Source: Chloroherpetonaceae bacterium (lineage in GTDB: Bacteria > Bacteroidota > Chlorobiia > Chlorobiales > Thermochlorobacteraceae). Taken from it: a DNA stretch of 64,000 bases. The notes beneath the pieces were generated by a model. The model saw only the letters and a list, made by a program, of their open reading frames with translations. It searched no databases and was not told the DNA's origin. Location of the stretch: the NCBI GenBank assembly GCA_033763895.1, contig JANRJQ010000007.1, forward strand, positions 1-64,000, written 5' to 3'. Below are positions 1 to 6,449 of the stretch, piece after piece (position 1 is the stretch's first letter; each line of letters opens with the position of its first letter). The position numbers and the translations under genes were made by a program.

Positions 1-196
1 TGGTCTCATAAAATCTTCTTGTGCCGACTGTTTTCAAGTAAGGTCGCTTTCTCAAGATAGACTTGTAAAACGGTTAGGGGTAATTAATTCTAATGAATTA
101 AATTCGATAAAAACTGCCTTAAAAATTGTTTTCGATTTATAGAGTAATGTCTTTTTTTTATACTCCCAATAAATATTACTTTCTTTGTAAAACGAT

Positions 197-345
197 TTCC
201 CCCAACCGTGAACGCTTTTTCTATTCTCGCGCCTTCGGCATTATAAAAATAATCGAGGAAATTTCCATTCGAAAATTGAATTCTTGTGGGCAGATTTCGC
301 CAATCGTATTGAATGCTGGTTATGCATTTTACTTTATCACTTGTT
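197..345 (-). pseudogene. RHS core remnant (scar 1)
   Basis: Read on the minus strand this stretch encodes an RHS/YD-repeat segment with the motifs YDWRNLPTRIQFSNG and DYFYNAEGARIEKAF. The same block occurs at 1909-2050 and partly at 4769-4850. Here it has no start codon, and the frame is lost after about 50 residues, with no toxin tip following. It is therefore a scar left by recombination between RHS copies. The rest of 1-434 shows no gene or structure I can support. The plus-strand reading frame over this segment is only its shadow. Confidence 0.75.
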
Positions 346-434
346 AAATTTCCGGTGAAATTTTATACACTTATTAGAAACTTGATATCTTTCAATAGGC
401 AGTAAAATTCAAATATAATAAAACAAGGATGTTT

Positions 435-794
435 TCAGCTTATTAAATTACTATTTTTCAATTCAATTATTATTTTAGCTTGCTTTGTAATTTCAATCCA
501 ATTTATATCAAATAAAATAGATTCATCTGAAATGAGCGGTTTATAATTTGAAATCATTTCATCTAATTTCTTCATTTGCAAACAGAATTCGTTTTCTTTG
601 TGATTTCTTTCGTAATAATCAATGTATTTTTTGAAATCAAAATCGTCATATAATATAGAAATAATTTCTGAAAATGAAGAAACATAATCCAAACTCTTTC
701 CAAGCCACGCTTTTCTTTGCATATCTAAATCAGATACATCTTTGATTGCATTGAATAAATTTATCTCCCAAATATTGATGTCTTCTTGTGTCAT
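435..794 (-). CDS. Probable immunity protein for the upstream RHS toxin
   Basis: A 119-residue acidic, soluble protein without signal peptide or membrane segment; I recognise no named family. Its ATG overlaps the stop of the RHS-toxin frame by one base (TAATG), so the two are translationally coupled. That position, directly behind the variable toxin tip of an RHS gene, is where cognate immunity genes lie in RHS/contact-dependent systems. A cytosolic immunity protein fits a toxin that is delivered to the cytoplasm, as the glycine/alanine-rich hydrophobic stretch ahead of the toxin suggests. The role is inferred from context, not from sequence similarity. Confidence 0.6.
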   Translation of the reverse strand: MTQEDINIWEINLFNAIKDVSDLDMQRKAWLGKSLDYVSSFSEIISILYDDFDFKKYIDYYERNHKENEFCLQMKKLDEMISNYKPLISDESILFDINWIEITKQAKIIIELKNSNLIS

Positions 795-2191
795 TATTTT
801 TTAAACTTAAATTCTTCTTTTGGAATATGCGCCTCTTTTGATTTAGGATTAACCTCTTTACCATTTACATCAACAGTTTTTCCATTTTCAGTTTGTTTTA
901 CATAAGGTTTTTGTTGTGCAGGATTTGGGCTTGCTGGATTTCCACTTTGAACCCTAACGTTATTTCCACTTGGATTTTGCGGGTCCTTAAAAACAGTACC
1001 CTGTTTGTTACTGGCAGTTTTTGATGTCCATTCTTTTGGTATCTGTTTAGTAACACTTCCACTTGCATCTCCTGATGGCCCGATTTGCTTCATTTCTTTG
1101 GCAGTTTCTTTAACACTACCGTTTAACCCACCAAGTAGTTTTCCTGCTACACCTACAGCTGCCCCAACAGTTGCATCTTGTACTACATCAGAAACAGTTG
1201 TTTCTTCACCTTGAATTCCACGGTTTAATGCACCACCCAACGCATTTGCTCCACCAGCAACACTTACAGTTACAAGCAAACTTGCACCACCAGTTAATCC
1301 AGCTGCACCTCCAGTAATTGCACCTTGTACAACGCTTCCAGTTACAGAACTCCAGTTAGAAACCTCACCATCTGTAATCAACTGTCTTGTAATTTCAATA
1401 CCCCCACCAAACAGAGCCCCAGCAACAGCACCAATTGCTCCCGTTACTAATGTTGGGCTCTTCCCACTCGGATCCTTAAACTTGTAAGGATTATTATACC
1501 CATAATGATATGGGCTAAAGGAACTTAATCCTTCGGATTCTGCGAGCGGGTCAATTTGCCAGAAAAGGGCAGAGAAATCGTCGAATTCCCTTGAGTCTAA
1601 ATGAACCGTGCCCGTTTCATCGTCATGCTCTTTATCGAGGAACTTGAAGCGGCCATCGCCGGCGGTTTGGGCGGTTTCGCGGATTGCGCCGTAGGCAAAG
1701 TAATCCGTCCGCTCCGTTACCGCACCATTTTGGTTTATTACAACCCGATTGCTTTGGAAATTATCTTTAAGCTCATAATACCGAATATTCGCAACCCTAT
1801 CTAAATACCCAAACTCGTGATAATAATACTTCGGAAGCGTTTGATTGCTATCGTAAACGGCAATGAGGTTTTTATTAATTCCATACTCATACTCCGTTCT
1901 TGTGGTATTTCCCCCAACCGTGAACGCTTTTTCTATTCTCACGCCCTCGGCATTATAAAAGTAATCAAGGGTTGTGTTATTTGAAAACTGAATTCTTATG
2001 GGGAGATTTCGCCAATCGTATTCGATGCTGGTTATGCCTTTGGCGTTATCGCGGGTGAGGTTGCCGTTACCGTCGTAAGCGTAGTTGTTGGAAAGTTGTC
2101 CGATTCGTACGCCTTCGTTGCTGTTGCTGCCTGTGGCGGCATCGGTAATGTGAGTGAGTTGGTTTCGGCCGCTCGCGTAGCAGTAAGTGAA
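794..2191 (-). CDS. Orphan RHS tip with C-terminal polymorphic toxin (5' truncated)
   Basis: The frame is open from 2191 and is preceded at once by an in-frame TAA, with no ATG near its beginning. It is thus the 3' end of an RHS gene, not a whole one. Numbering from the GTG at 1942, residues 1-160 are RHS core (YD-type motifs, NPYKFKDPSGK boundary). About 163-275 is a Gly/Ala-rich hydrophobic pre-toxin region, and about 300-382 is the toxin tip. The tip contains VRVQSGNPASPNPAQQKPYV and EAHIPKEEF; from memory this resembles tips of other polymorphic toxins (a nuclease family often called type 24), which I could not verify. Expression may need recombination into an intact RHS gene upstream, or an internal start such as the GTG. 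The immunity gene follows directly. Confidence 0.7.
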   Translation of the reverse strand, partial: FTYCYASGRNQLTHITDAATGSNSNEGVRIGQLSNNYAYDGNGNLTRDNAKGITSIEYDWRNLPIRIQFSNNTTLDYFYNAEGVRIEKAFTVGGNTTRTEYEYGINKNLIAVYDSNQTLPKYYYHEFGYLDRVANIRYYELKDNFQSNRVVINQNGAVTERTDYFAYGAIRETAQTAGDGRFKFLDKEHDDETGTVHLDSREFDDFSALFWQIDPLAESEGLSSFSPYHYGYNNPYKFKDPSGKSPTLVTGAIGAVAGALFGGGIEITRQLITDGEVSNWSSVTGSVVQGAITGGAAGLTGGASLLVTVSVAGGANALGGALNRGIQGEETTVSDVVQDATVGAAVGVAGKLLGGLNGSVKETAKEMKQIGPSGDASGSVTKQIPKEWTSKTASNKQGTVFKDPQNPSGNNVRVQSGNPASPNPAQQKPYVKQTENGKTVDVNGKEVNPKSKEAHIPKEEFKFKK

Positions 2192-2262
2192 TTATTTAAT
2201 TAAAATTATTCACAAAATTTGAGAATATTGGAAATAAATGACTCGAATTAAGTACATTAAAA

Positions 2263-2427
2263 TTAGGTATTAATTTTCTTTGGATTCAATGATTTATCCT
2301 CTTCAATTTTTTTCCGAATATATTCTTTTAACTCAATAAATGACATCGTTTCAGTTTCATATCCAATTTGATCACGTATTTTTCTCATCATTGAGACTGC
2401 ATCGAATGTTTTGTTCACTATTTCCAT
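2263..2427 (-). CDS. Small antitoxin-like protein paired with PIN toxin
   Basis: A 54-codon frame starting two bases after the stop of the PIN gene. The protein begins MEIVNKTFDAVSMMRKIRDQ and continues with an amphipathic Glu/Lys-rich helix ending KKINT. Small proteins with this KTFDAV..MRxIRDxI opening commonly sit beside PIN-domain toxins, from my recollection of similar loci. The order here is toxin first, antitoxin second, opposite to classical vapBC. It likely binds and neutralises the PIN ribonuclease. No DNA-binding fold is evident in so short a chain. Confidence 0.6.
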   Translation of the reverse strand: MEIVNKTFDAVSMMRKIRDQIGYETETMSFIELKEYIRKKIEEDKSLNPKKINT

Positions 2428-2429
2428 TT

Positions 2430-2888
2430 CTAATAATTGATTAAATCTTTTGGACTTCTAATTTCAATAAGTGAGTATCCCAATTTAAGGTTTACGGCAT
2501 TATAGCCTTTGATTCTATTAAGGTTAACGATATGCTTAAAGTTCCAACTCGCCAGAACATCGACTTTACTATAAGTTGCCAATGCAATATGTCTGCAATC
2601 CTCAATGCTCGTTTTACCCACTACCTTTTCTTCAATATACTTATCAGCTAAGTAAAATACTTCTTCATTTAGTTCAATCCTCTCAAAAAATTCTTTCGGG
2701 TATTTTGGAAGCAATTCCTTTACAAATGAAGGTGCTTGAAGCAGTTCAACTTCTAAAAGGTCAGAGATAACAAAAATGACTTCACCTGCTTCAAGTCGCT
2801 GAAATAAAAAGCGGGTATCTTCTTTAAATTCTTCATCAAAAAAGCCGCCAACAACAGAAGTATCGATGTAAATGCGTTGTTTGTGCAT
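2430..2888 (-). CDS. PIN-domain protein (VapC-like ribonuclease toxin)
   Basis: A 152-residue protein with PIN-domain hallmarks. The N-terminal strand IYIDTSVVGGFFD supplies the first acidic residue (Asp9), DLLEVELL the second, and the C-terminal IEDCRHIALA..KVDVLASWNFKH the remaining acidic residues and the helix typical of PIN nucleases. PIN toxins are Mg-dependent endoribonucleases. The gene is followed after two bases by a small antitoxin-like gene, so it is probably a type II toxin-antitoxin pair. It lies between two RHS scars, which suggests insertion into, or capture by, the RHS recombination region. Confidence 0.75.
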   Translation of the reverse strand: MHKQRIYIDTSVVGGFFDEEFKEDTRFLFQRLEAGEVIFVISDLLEVELLQAPSFVKELLPKYPKEFFERIELNEEVFYLADKYIEEKVVGKTSIEDCRHIALATYSKVDVLASWNFKHIVNLNRIKGYNAVNLKLGYSLIEIRSPKDLINY

Positions 2889-2962
2889 CGTGCACCTTAA
2901 TTTTAACGAAAGTTAATATTCAATTTCAAGTTAAAAAAAAACAGATATTATTCTTTTAGCTC

Positions 2963-3031
2963 AGATACCCAACTTCATTGTAATAAAAAGTCGCGGAAGT
3001 TGCAAGGTTTTCGTTAATGGTGATGAGATTA
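2963..3031 (-). pseudogene. RHS core remnant (scar 2)
   Basis: About 70 bases read on the minus strand as LATSATFYYNEVGYL, matching the RHS core of the neighbouring copy (4655-4735) almost base for base. Neither a start nor a toxin tip is attached. It lies upstream of the PIN gene and downstream of the lipoprotein immunity gene, so it marks another module whose RHS part has been almost wholly lost. Confidence 0.75.
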
Positions 3032-3113
3032 ACTTAAAAAAATTGGCTTATTACTTTTTTTTCATTCTAACCTAAAAACTTTTTCAAAAAATGATCTGAA
3101 TTCAATATTTTGA

Positions 3114-3683
3114 TTATTTTAAGGATTTTTTATAAACATTCCACCCAAAATCATTAATTACTTTAACTTCTCCAGTAGTTAGTAAATATACATTTACTTC
3201 TTCTATTGGATTATTTCTTTCTCTATTATTTATAATTCTTCTAACTTTTAAATTTAATGTGTCTATAGATTTATTATAACAACCTGCTACTTTATTATTT
3301 CCGTTATCAGAAAAATATTCAATCTCCCAATTTACATAATACTTTAAATCGCCTTTTTCTATTTTATAATTTAACACTAGACAATATACACCTTCAACAC
3401 TTTTAGTTTTATTTTCACTATTCTTTTCATATGTTTTGTTCTCTAAAAACGAATCATAAAATTTAATAATTACAGAATCATAAAAAATAATATTGAAATC
3501 ATTAAATTTCCTTATTAATATACCTTTACTCAAAGATTCAGTTGAGCTATTGCTTGTTGAGGCAAATGGGGTTTTTCTTATTTTCAAATCGCAAGACTCA
3601 ATACTTAGAAAAGCAAGTAAAGAAATGAAAATAAACTTTTTATTGATGATTGACACCTTAGAACATATAATGTTATTCCTCAT
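3114..3683 (-). CDS. Lipoprotein, probable periplasmic immunity protein
   Basis: 189 residues. A short charged N-terminus is followed by a hydrophobic stretch KFIFISLLAFLSIESC, a lipoprotein signal with Cys as the likely lipidated residue. The mature part is hydrophilic and of no family I recognise. Its start overlaps the end of the preceding RHS-toxin frame by 11 bases, so it is coupled to it. By position it should be the immunity protein of that toxin, and its lipid anchor puts protection in the periplasm. This agrees with a toxin tip that looks like a papain-like hydrolase of wall or lipid bonds. The function is inferred from context. Confidence 0.6.
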   Translation of the reverse strand: MRNNIICSKVSIINKKFIFISLLAFLSIESCDLKIRKTPFASTSNSSTESLSKGILIRKFNDFNIIFYDSVIIKFYDSFLENKTYEKNSENKTKSVEGVYCLVLNYKIEKGDLKYYVNWEIEYFSDNGNNKVAGCYNKSIDTLNLKVRRIINNRERNNPIEEVNVYLLTTGEVKVINDFGWNVYKKSLK

Positions 3684-4860
3684 TTTTCATCTTTTTTGAA
3701 AGATTTATTCTTTTTGGATCTACATCTAATCTTGGAATTAAATTACTTTTATAATGATCTAGCACCCTTTGTAAAAGGTCTATTTCGTTTCCATTAGAAT
3801 CTAATAATTTAGAATTTATAGATCCATTCATCAACCTTAGAAAAATCATATTTGGAGATAAGGTATTTATCATTGCTCCTATCGGACCTCCAATGAATCC
3901 TGTTAAAAAACCTGCAAGACTTTGATTACCCATATATACACCAGCATTATCCAATGCCCTTTGAACAGCGTGTGCACAATTTGCTGTCGTGGTATTATAG
4001 TTTTTTCCCGCTTCTTCCATAAAACCAGCAATTGCTTTTTCATCTTGCTCTTTAGTCATTGGAATTAATAAACCTCGTTCATATAGTGTACCTCCATTAC
4101 TGTCTTTATTAAATTCACTTGCAAAAAACTCCTCTGGACTGTTAAACGGTCCATCTCCTATATTTGGTTTTATACTATTTTCACCTGAGTATCCTAAATT
4201 ATCATTAGTCCCATTTTTTGAATAATAACGCCATTTCCCATCCTTACTTTGTATTAATATTCCAATATGGCCAAAGTTTCCTGCACCTTGAAAATCAACT
4301 AAAACGACAGAAGAATCACCTGTTTTATCAATGTACTTTAATGGATTTACCTTTCCGTAAATGTAGGGGCTTAAATTAGGGTACTTACTTTCAAATCTAT
4401 CCGGCCGATTAAACACGCCTTCAAAATTGAATAACTCTCTTGCGTTGGTATGGGTTGAGCCGGTTTCATTATCCAATTCTAATCCTAAAAACTTCCACCG
4501 ACCATCGCCGCTTTTAATCCAGCTTTGCCGCGGGGCGCCGTAGGCGAAGTAGTCATTGATTTCGGCAAAGGTTATGCCGGCGGAGTCGGAAAAGGTCGCG
4601 CGGTTGTTGCCCAATTGGTCTTTCAAGTAATAGAACCGAACACTATCCGCTCTTCTCAAATACCCAACTTCATTGTAATAAAAAGTCGGGGAAGTTGCAA
4701 GGTTTTCGTAAACAGCAATGAGATTTCCGCCCGCGCCATACTCATACTCCGTCCGTGTTGTATTTCCTCCAACCGTGAACGCTTTTTCTATTCTCGCGCC
4801 TTCGGCGTTATAAAAATAATCAAGAAGATTTCCATCAGACGGTTTAAAAGCTTTTGGCAT
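3673..4860 (-). CDS. Orphan RHS tip with papain-like (permuted NlpC/P60 or LRAT-like) toxin domain
   Basis: 395 residues from the ATG at 4860, but RHS homology (DYFYNAEGARIEKAF) begins within 15 codons, so only the 3' part of an RHS gene is present. Residues about 15-180 are RHS core ending NPLKYIDKTGDSS. The variable tip then carries GAGNFGHIGILI, RYYSKNGTN and NCAHAVQRALDNAG. A His in a strand followed much later by a Cys at a helix start is the arrangement of permuted NlpC/P60 and LRAT-like thiol hydrolases. There is no long hydrophobic pre-toxin segment like that of the other module. A lipoprotein immunity gene follows with an 11-base overlap. The start region abuts the nuo terminator, so no promoter of its own is apparent. 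Confidence 0.65.
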   Translation of the reverse strand: MPKAFKPSDGNLLDYFYNAEGARIEKAFTVGGNTTRTEYEYGAGGNLIAVYENLATSPTFYYNEVGYLRRADSVRFYYLKDQLGNNRATFSDSAGITFAEINDYFAYGAPRQSWIKSGDGRWKFLGLELDNETGSTHTNARELFNFEGVFNRPDRFESKYPNLSPYIYGKVNPLKYIDKTGDSSVVLVDFQGAGNFGHIGILIQSKDGKWRYYSKNGTNDNLGYSGENSIKPNIGDGPFNSPEEFFASEFNKDSNGGTLYERGLLIPMTKEQDEKAIAGFMEEAGKNYNTTTANCAHAVQRALDNAGVYMGNQSLAGFLTGFIGGPIGAMINTLSPNMIFLRLMNGSINSKLLDSNGNEIDLLQRVLDHYKSNLIPRLDVDPKRINLSKKMKNEE

Positions 4861-4885
4861 AAAAAAAAGGCACCCGAAAGTGCCT
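4861..4885 (-). terminator. Rho-independent terminator of the nuo operon
   Basis: On the minus strand a 6-bp stem AGGCAC/GTGCCT with loop TTTCGG is followed by a run of eight T. It lies 29 bases after the nuoN stop and immediately before the RHS fragment. Confidence 0.85.
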
Positions 4886-4913
4886 GTAATGTCCGTCGCA
4901 AAAACAAGATTGC

Positions 4914-6449
4914 TTAATTCAACAGCCCTAAAATAGATACCGAGTATTTCGCTAAATTTGATAATGGGGCAAAGTAAACTCCCATAACAAAAATCATAAT
5001 CATCAAAAATGAAACCAATGCATTTTGCAGTATTCCAAATTCAATTGGCGATTGATTTCCACTCTCCGATTCTTTGAGATACATATTCAGCGGAATCTTG
5101 AAGTAATAATAAAGAGAAACCACACTCGTTAAAATCCCCGCGGTTGCAAGCAACACAAAAGTTGACCCTTTGGAAAGCAAAGCCGAGAAAATCATATATT
5201 TTCCAATAAACCCTACGGTTGGTGGTAAACCTGTAAGAGATATTAAAAACACGGTTAATGCCGCTGCAAGTATCGGCATGCGCTTTCCAAGCCCTTTATA
5301 ATCGTTAATATCGTCACTACCAATTTTATTTGAGATAAGAATAATCACAAAAAATGCCCCGATATTCATCACAGTATATGCCGTGAGGTAAAATAGAACA
5401 GCTTGTGTGCCTAAATCATCCGCGACCAAAACACCAAGTAAAATATATCCTGCATGCGCAATTGAAGAATACGCAAGAATACGCTTGACATTTGTTTGCC
5501 AAACCGCCACAAAATTACCAAGGATCATAGAAGTCAGTGCTAAAAGCGAAAGCAAGCCAACCCAATCAAGACCAATTTCATTTGCACCGGAAGGGAACGA
5601 AACCCTGAGAAACCGAATCAACATCGCGAAACCTGCCGCTTTTGAGCCAACGGAAAGAAACGCAGTAACCGGAGTCGGTGCACCTTCATAAACATCCGGT
5701 GACCAAAAATGAAACGGTACTGCGCCGATCTTGTATCCAAATCCACCCATAATCAATAAGAGCGAAAGCAGCAACGCAACCGAATCCACATCATGAATTC
5801 TTAGAAAATCAGAAATCGCATAGATGTTGGTTACGCCAGTTAGTCCGTAAAGAATTGAAATCCCATAAATCATCAGCCCCGAGGATACAGACCCATAAAT
5901 GATATATTTCAGCGAGGCTTCCGACGAACGAATATTGCCTTTCAAATAGCCCGTAAGCACATACGACGAAAGGCTTACAAGTTCAAGCGAGAGATACATC
6001 ATAAGCATATCTGAAGCCGAAGCCATTAAAAACATCCCCAAAACCATTGCAACCACAATCGCATAATATTCCCCTAAACTGCGTGTTGCAGATTTGGTTA
6101 ATTCCTCGGATGAAAGTGAGATTAAAATGGCTAAAATGCCCGAAAAGAGAAAAAGATATTTGAAGAAAAGTGCAAAAGGATCAACAGCATGCATTCCTAA
6201 AAAATAATTCCCAAATTCAAGAGAATGTTGCTGAAAAACGAAATAGCCCGTCACAAAAAAACCAACAATTGCAACCGCGGGAATCACCTTTCTTCGGCCG
6301 CTTTTCAAAACCAAATCCAACAATACGATGATTAAAAAAAGTCCTGAAAGGCAGAGTTCCGGCGAAAAAGCAGAAACACTGAGCTTAAGTGCCTCAACCG
6401 TTTGCGGAATATCCACAGGAGCAGTCGCTAAAAAAAGTCCGTTTTTCAT
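4914..6449 (-). CDS. nuoN: NADH-quinone oxidoreductase (complex I) subunit N
   Basis: 511 residues, the usual size for NuoN, an antiporter-like proton-pumping subunit of the complex I membrane arm with about 14 membrane helices. The conserved segment KIGAVPFHFWSPDVYEGAPT carries the central pumping lysine, and YLSLELVSLSSYVLTGY holds the conserved glutamate of the fifth helix. It is the last gene of the eleven-gene nuo operon, 38 bases after nuoM, and is followed by a strong terminator. Confidence 0.95.
   Translation of the reverse strand: MKNGLFLATAPVDIPQTVEALKLSVSAFSPELCLSGLFLIIVLLDLVLKSGRRKVIPAVAIVGFFVTGYFVFQQHSLEFGNYFLGMHAVDPFALFFKYLFLFSGILAILISLSSEELTKSATRSLGEYYAIVVAMVLGMFLMASASDMLMMYLSLELVSLSSYVLTGYLKGNIRSSEASLKYIIYGSVSSGLMIYGISILYGLTGVTNIYAISDFLRIHDVDSVALLLSLLLIMGGFGYKIGAVPFHFWSPDVYEGAPTPVTAFLSVGSKAAGFAMLIRFLRVSFPSGANEIGLDWVGLLSLLALTSMILGNFVAVWQTNVKRILAYSSIAHAGYILLGVLVADDLGTQAVLFYLTAYTVMNIGAFFVIILISNKIGSDDINDYKGLGKRMPILAAALTVFLISLTGLPPTVGFIGKYMIFSALLSKGSTFVLLATAGILTSVVSLYYYFKIPLNMYLKESESGNQSPIEFGILQNALVSFLMIMIFVMGVYFAPLSNLAKYSVSILGLLN

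Follow-up and report, generated by a model that had tools for sequence, protein, structure and literature searches.

The stretch between the end of the nuo operon and the end of contig C7 is probably an archive of displaced RHS tips. The window (the whole stretch of DNA analysed, 64,000 nucleotides, C7:1-64000, with base 1 at the contig end) holds at 195-4851 four pieces from the 3' part of RHS genes, all of the same family; two bear distinct toxin tips and two are reduced to short scars (Table 1). A number of arguments favour this reading: the fragments have varied borders, their cores are mosaic, and one core with its pre-toxin region carries different toxins at different loci. RHS 3' fragments would have been imported or shunted aside in succession, via recombination in the conserved core; two would have retained an intact toxin and immunity pair, and two would have shrunk to scars. 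As assembled, the tips would be cryptic, having no N-terminus, no translation start signals and a terminator in front of them, and the immunity genes may remain expressed and protect against incoming toxins. Arrays of dissociated tips that arise by displacement have been described (PMC2935791), as have orphan tips devoid of start signals (PMC3967940).

Table 1. Features at the array end of the window (positions of the window; strand relative to the contig).
Feature	Position	Strand	Evidence
PemK/MazF-like toxin, C-terminal part, cut by contig end	14..133	+	PF02452 1.3e-5, 25.8 bits vs 23.1 cut-off
RHS scar 1, core residues 79-133, no tip	195..353	-	tblastn E 1e-16
Immunity gene 1, 119 aa, SCO4402/DUF7945-like	435..794	-	NF047838 1.6e-8, below cut-off
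Toxin domain, tip 1, ~100 aa	797..1096	-	79, 74, 42, 42% identity to domains in L103-L106
Pre-toxin region, glycine-rich, tip 1	1097..1465	-	83% nt identity to C12:50634-51148
RHS core copy 2 (beta type), in frame with tip 1	1463..2190	-	TIGR03696 9.8e-13
54-aa ORF, candidate antitoxin	2263..2427	-	position after PIN-like gene; no significant family match
PIN-domain-like (VapC-like) gene, 152 aa, tentative	2430..2888	-	PF01850 E 0.005, 17.9 bits vs 23.6 cut-off
RHS scar 3 (alpha type), core residues 146-177	2960..3030	-	90% nt identity to 4655-4725
Immunity gene 2, 189 aa, N-terminal signal, lipobox-like LSIESC	3114..3683	-	ORF; lipobox read from sequence
Toxin domain, tip 2, 219 residues	3676..4332	-	His (GHI) and Cys (NCAH) invariant with L100, L101
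RHS core copy 4 (alpha type), in frame with tip 2	4327..4851	-	TIGR03696 5.8e-8; ORF ATG 4860
Intrinsic terminator, nuo operon	4868..4885	-	7-pair stem and T-run, -9.9 kcal/mol
nuoN, last operon gene, array boundary	4914..6449	-	67-73% identity to nuoN of closest relatives

RHS fragments behind nuoN and the search for a parent gene

The assembly (14 contigs, 3.55 Mb, completeness 99.1%, contamination 0.2%) belongs by kinship to the same order as a relative available as a single contig of 3,293,456 bases (G009); the search for relatives yielded no genome from within the genus. On the minus strand, nuoN is followed by the terminator, tip 2, immunity gene 2, scar 3, the PIN-like gene, the 54-aa ORF, core copy 2 with tip 1, immunity gene 1 and scar 1; beyond scar 1, on the opposite strand, the C-terminus of the PemK-like toxin is interrupted by the contig end. 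This bears out the position at the end of the nuo operon given in the original prediction: nuoN ends at 4914 and the array follows, with nothing 5' of it but the nuoN terminator, directly after which tip 2 begins, the T-run ending in the ATG of tip 2 (4860). The nearest relatives examined carry no RHS sequence behind nuoN, which makes the array an addition in the source lineage.

The four core stretches, the two tips with coupled immunity genes and the two scars that had been predicted are confirmed, with corrected borders, and all four core-like stretches match other copies in the genome by BLAST (up to E = 1e-224). Copy 2 had been placed at 1909-2191; its core is real, and its extent was wrong, as it runs over 1463-2190 without a break into tip 1, with which it forms a single open frame (797-2190, 465 codons). 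In the coordinates of a 281-residue reference core, copy 4 covers residues 105-281 plus its tip and copy 2 about 45-281 plus its tip; TIGR03696 scores above its cut-off for both tip ORFs. Frames and core coordinates agree with the earlier claim that no copy has a full RHS N-terminus. The first in-frame start codon of the copy 2 frame is a GTG at 1942, no ribosome-binding signal can be read from the sequence before tip 2, and the 28 promoter-like matches, where shuffled sequence would be expected to give 18.9, point to no particular start. The orphan tip frames are thus devoid of both N-terminus and start signals.

The core fragments start and stop at differing positions of one core, and two core types can be told apart, which have the upstream part in common and diverge in the downstream part. 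Overlapping core parts are 78-93% identical in nucleotides within the window, with a longest exact run of 38 bp; genome-wide, pairwise identities span 74-97% and the longest exact runs 9-90 bp. Scar 1 is 85% identical to copy 2 and 92% to the copies on contig C9, copy 2 is 90% identical to a C9 copy, and copy 4 is 90% identical to C12:47722-48197. Close core pairs have dN/dS values of about 0.15-0.28, scars included, which suggests that the copies diverged before being cut loose, while they were functional; repeated import from related donors appears to fit these values better than local duplication. The G+C content is 0.44-0.46 in the large cores against 0.24-0.36 in the toxin and immunity genes. 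Two other origins were rejected: toxin-antitoxin (TA) modules inserted into one RHS gene, because core coordinates are discontinuous across these modules, and copying driven by insertion sequences, because a genome search with the DNA of 1-4900 returned no repeats besides RHS core and pre-toxin sequence.

The genome holds 18 matches to the Rhs_assc_core model. None belongs to a full-length RHS gene: with the RHS_repeat, TEN_YD-shell and YD_repeat_2x models, the 99%-complete assembly gave either no match or weak ones that fall on the orphan copies. As a control, YD_repeat_2x finds at least 10 repeats in a 2278-codon frame of a relative (G037), and a parent gene of such kind would therefore have been seen. 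The core family of the window recurs in arrays at the ends of contigs C12, C9 and C5. The ends of C12 and C9 overlap exactly over 141 bp, as at other joints of the assembly, so that the two probably form one array of ~8 kb with ordinary genes on both sides and no full gene; the end of C5 matches that of C12 at 99% identity across 212 bp, and a branch of this array to C5 is possible. Several C12 frames are also intact. The start of C7 overlaps no other contig end exactly, and the gap beyond its base 1 could hide a full RHS gene.

A second core family (SGQENEGDGKLWNFRARLYN...) forms tandem tip arrays at C7:85-90 kb and C7:154-175 kb (L033, L034, L035), most of its tips being followed by a small gene, again with no full-length gene. 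A 2071-aa FG-GAP/IPT repeat protein adjoins these second arrays (C7:158.5-164.7 kb, L034:8527-14742) and its C-terminus looks, by eye, like a type IX secretion sorting tail. A relative of the same order (G012, L110-L113) contains comparable arrays of truncated tips, which again sit at contig ends, as well as an Ntox50 toxin gene (PF15542, 2.7e-12). The starts of C10 and C8 (L065, L063) have tandem repeats in common, 75-93% alike, in genes resembling beta-propellers (NHL-type). Our literature search on RHS in Chlorobi or Chloroherpeton gave no results.

The two tips and their partner genes

The tips resemble polymorphic toxins, as had been proposed: toxin 1 and its immunity gene occur as a pair on other RHS proteins, and the relatives of toxin 2 are RHS tips. 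Over the aligned domain, toxin 1 is 79% identical to a sequence of Echinicola pacifica, 74% to one of Pontibacter, and 42% each to ones of Methylocaldum and a Chlamydiae MAG; in Pontibacter and Methylocaldum the relative terminates a frame of RHS type that exceeds 1000 residues. Immunity gene 1 overlaps tip 1 by one base, and its homologue is the next gene after the toxin 1 relative in 4/4 genomes (17-53% identical). This pairing, kept in four distant genomes, is our best evidence for assigning 435-794 as the immunity gene of toxin 1 and for the two moving together. Toxin 1 and its partner are a mobile toxin/immunity pair traceable across phyla. A search of 394 genomes of the phylum found no relative of toxin 1, and a search for relatives with the core protein in the genome-contig collection gave none.

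Tip 1 has its core and pre-toxin region in common with one C12 tip, and the toxin and immunity genes differ between the two. This supports the view that tips were swapped in their history, the part of the predicted recombination at the core that stands; the part that requires a full gene together with the array does not. No toxin name for either tip came from Pfam, NCBIfam or PADLOC. Plasmid relatives of toxin 1 bear the name 'polymorphic toxin type 10', and we rejected Ntox10 for tip 1, as five members match no Pfam model and the domain of the window has no NCBIfam match. The predicted structure of toxin 1 is a moderate model (pLDDT 80), with which a PDB fold search gave no match (best E 0.55); a sequence match to 8owu is weak (E 0.007) and a lead only.

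Two short RHS tips on cores in the phylum share 25-27% identity with toxin 2, and in these three sequences a Gly-His is followed by a Cys, in the order of permuted papain-like enzymes. By this residue order, toxin 2 may resemble a permuted papain-like (NlpC/P60 type) domain. It found no family or PDB match of value, and its structure predicted from a single sequence is poor (pLDDT 43). Immunity gene 2 overlaps tip 2 by 11 bp, and behind each toxin 2 relative lies a gene for a small protein whose N-terminus holds a membrane segment, so the pairing is assigned by position and by these analogous neighbours. As the partner reads as a lipoprotein, the target of toxin 2 likely lies in the cell wall or periplasm. 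An orphan tip on C12 (L012:9447-11251, C12:47446-49250) carries a D-Ala-D-Ala peptidase (M15) domain (PF13539, 1.1e-11), and its small partner gene starts with a hydrophobic segment.

Toxin-antitoxin genes among the fragments

Most small genes between the RHS fragments match the PIN, RelE and PemK families, and a HigB/HTH pair is also found among the arrays. Across the whole genome, 4/9 PIN matches above cut-off, 3/3 RelE and 2/3 PemK matches lie inside RHS arrays, in all 9/15 within ~40 kb or 1.1% of the genome. The binomial chance is ~1e-14 for the 9/15 and 3e-7 for the core family of the window alone (4/15), computed with island edges hand-set around RHS matches, with matches that are not fully independent, and with three families picked after TA genes had appeared in the arrays. 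The TA genes are strongly concentrated among RHS fragments; because edges were hand-set, families were chosen post hoc and both kinds of genes collect in variable islands anyway, we read this as an association and not as a special link. The PIN domains are separate genes here, not RHS tips, and PIN domains are apparently unused as polymorphic toxin tips (Zhang et al. 2012, PMC3482391). At C7:154-175 kb, VapC, RelE, PemK and HigBA genes stand between tips of the second family.

In the relative G012, RelE and HicB genes adjoin two RHS loci. Our literature searches found no report of joint arrays of RHS tips and TA genes, which is weak evidence of novelty. There is a small chance that, across the order, RHS tip arrays and type II TA modules share islands and that the addictive TA modules keep the arrays in place. 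If so, recombination between core repeats that loses a segment would cost the cell an antitoxin and do it harm, and a silent archive would persist with no full RHS gene. TA crowding offers a testable idea for how silent repeat arrays escape deletion.

Competing readings and known systems

The strongest rival to an archive is pure decay, the array being what remains of a former RHS locus, of no present use and heading for deletion. Two of the four copies are scars, the assembly lacks a full gene, and start signals are absent, all of which fit; yet both toxin and both immunity frames are intact, the tip frames spanning ~1.4 kb, as are several on C12, and we consider decay unlikely. The intact frames could also signal continued use, which would speak against a silent archive. 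We give still less credit to an active switching cassette, in which a full RHS gene in the unassembled stretch beyond base 1 swaps tips via core recombination. Four contig ends (C5, C7, C9 and C12) lie inside RHS sequence, so that repeats probably broke the assembly there, the window and C9 have exact runs of up to 90 bp in common, and there is a precedent in Salmonella (PMC3967940). However, a single-copy N-terminus should assemble somewhere and three RHS models found none, full genes usually precede their orphans on the 5' side, a place taken here by nuoN, and core identities are mostly 78-94%. The Salmonella locus that rearranges in experiments has a core 95% identical over 522 bp (PMC3967940); core identities here are mostly below that value (78-93% within the window). 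The toxin-switching cassette of a full gene and an array in the original prediction is not supported, given an assembly with no full RHS gene and a nuoN terminator 5' of the array. Switching is possible in principle and lacks a main gene in the assembly.

The least probable reading is that the orphan tips act as stand-alone intracellular toxin-antitoxin modules, as reported for Salmonella RHS elements, a precedent outlined in PMC7043789. The coupled toxin and immunity frames and the TA modules of other types around the tips would agree with it, but neither tip has a notable start signal before it, a terminator precedes tip 2, and immunity protein 2 looks like an exported lipoprotein, no guard against a cytoplasmic toxin.

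An archive of displaced tips accords with known systems, and by analogy the displaced-tip model (PMC2935791) explains the locus. As in the enterobacterial orphan rhs-CT/rhsI loci (PMC2935791, PMC3967940), 3' core fragments with toxin and immunity gene stand in tandem, in frames that lack an N-terminus and start signals. The differences lie in the absence of a main rhs gene from the assembly, in nuoN and a terminator upstream, in cores that are diverged and broken at many points, in type II TA modules between the fragments, and in the phylum. The locus is an orphan-only array rather than a complete rhs locus, because no full-length rhs gene lies upstream or anywhere in the assembly. With the cassettes surveyed by Zhang et al. 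(2012, PMC3482391), where the median was one active toxin per three cassettes, it shares arrays of toxin/immunity cassettes, and papain-like (here putative) and other toxins on RHS proteins; it differs in its 18 core matches with no full gene and in a toxin 1 with no Pfam toxin model. Chromosomal type II TA modules involve the same PIN, RelE and PemK families, which in this genome differ in being packed into RHS arrays. With this packing and its orphan-only state, the locus exceeds the textbook picture: a Chlorobiales-type genome would keep an archive of RHS tips with no assembled parent gene.
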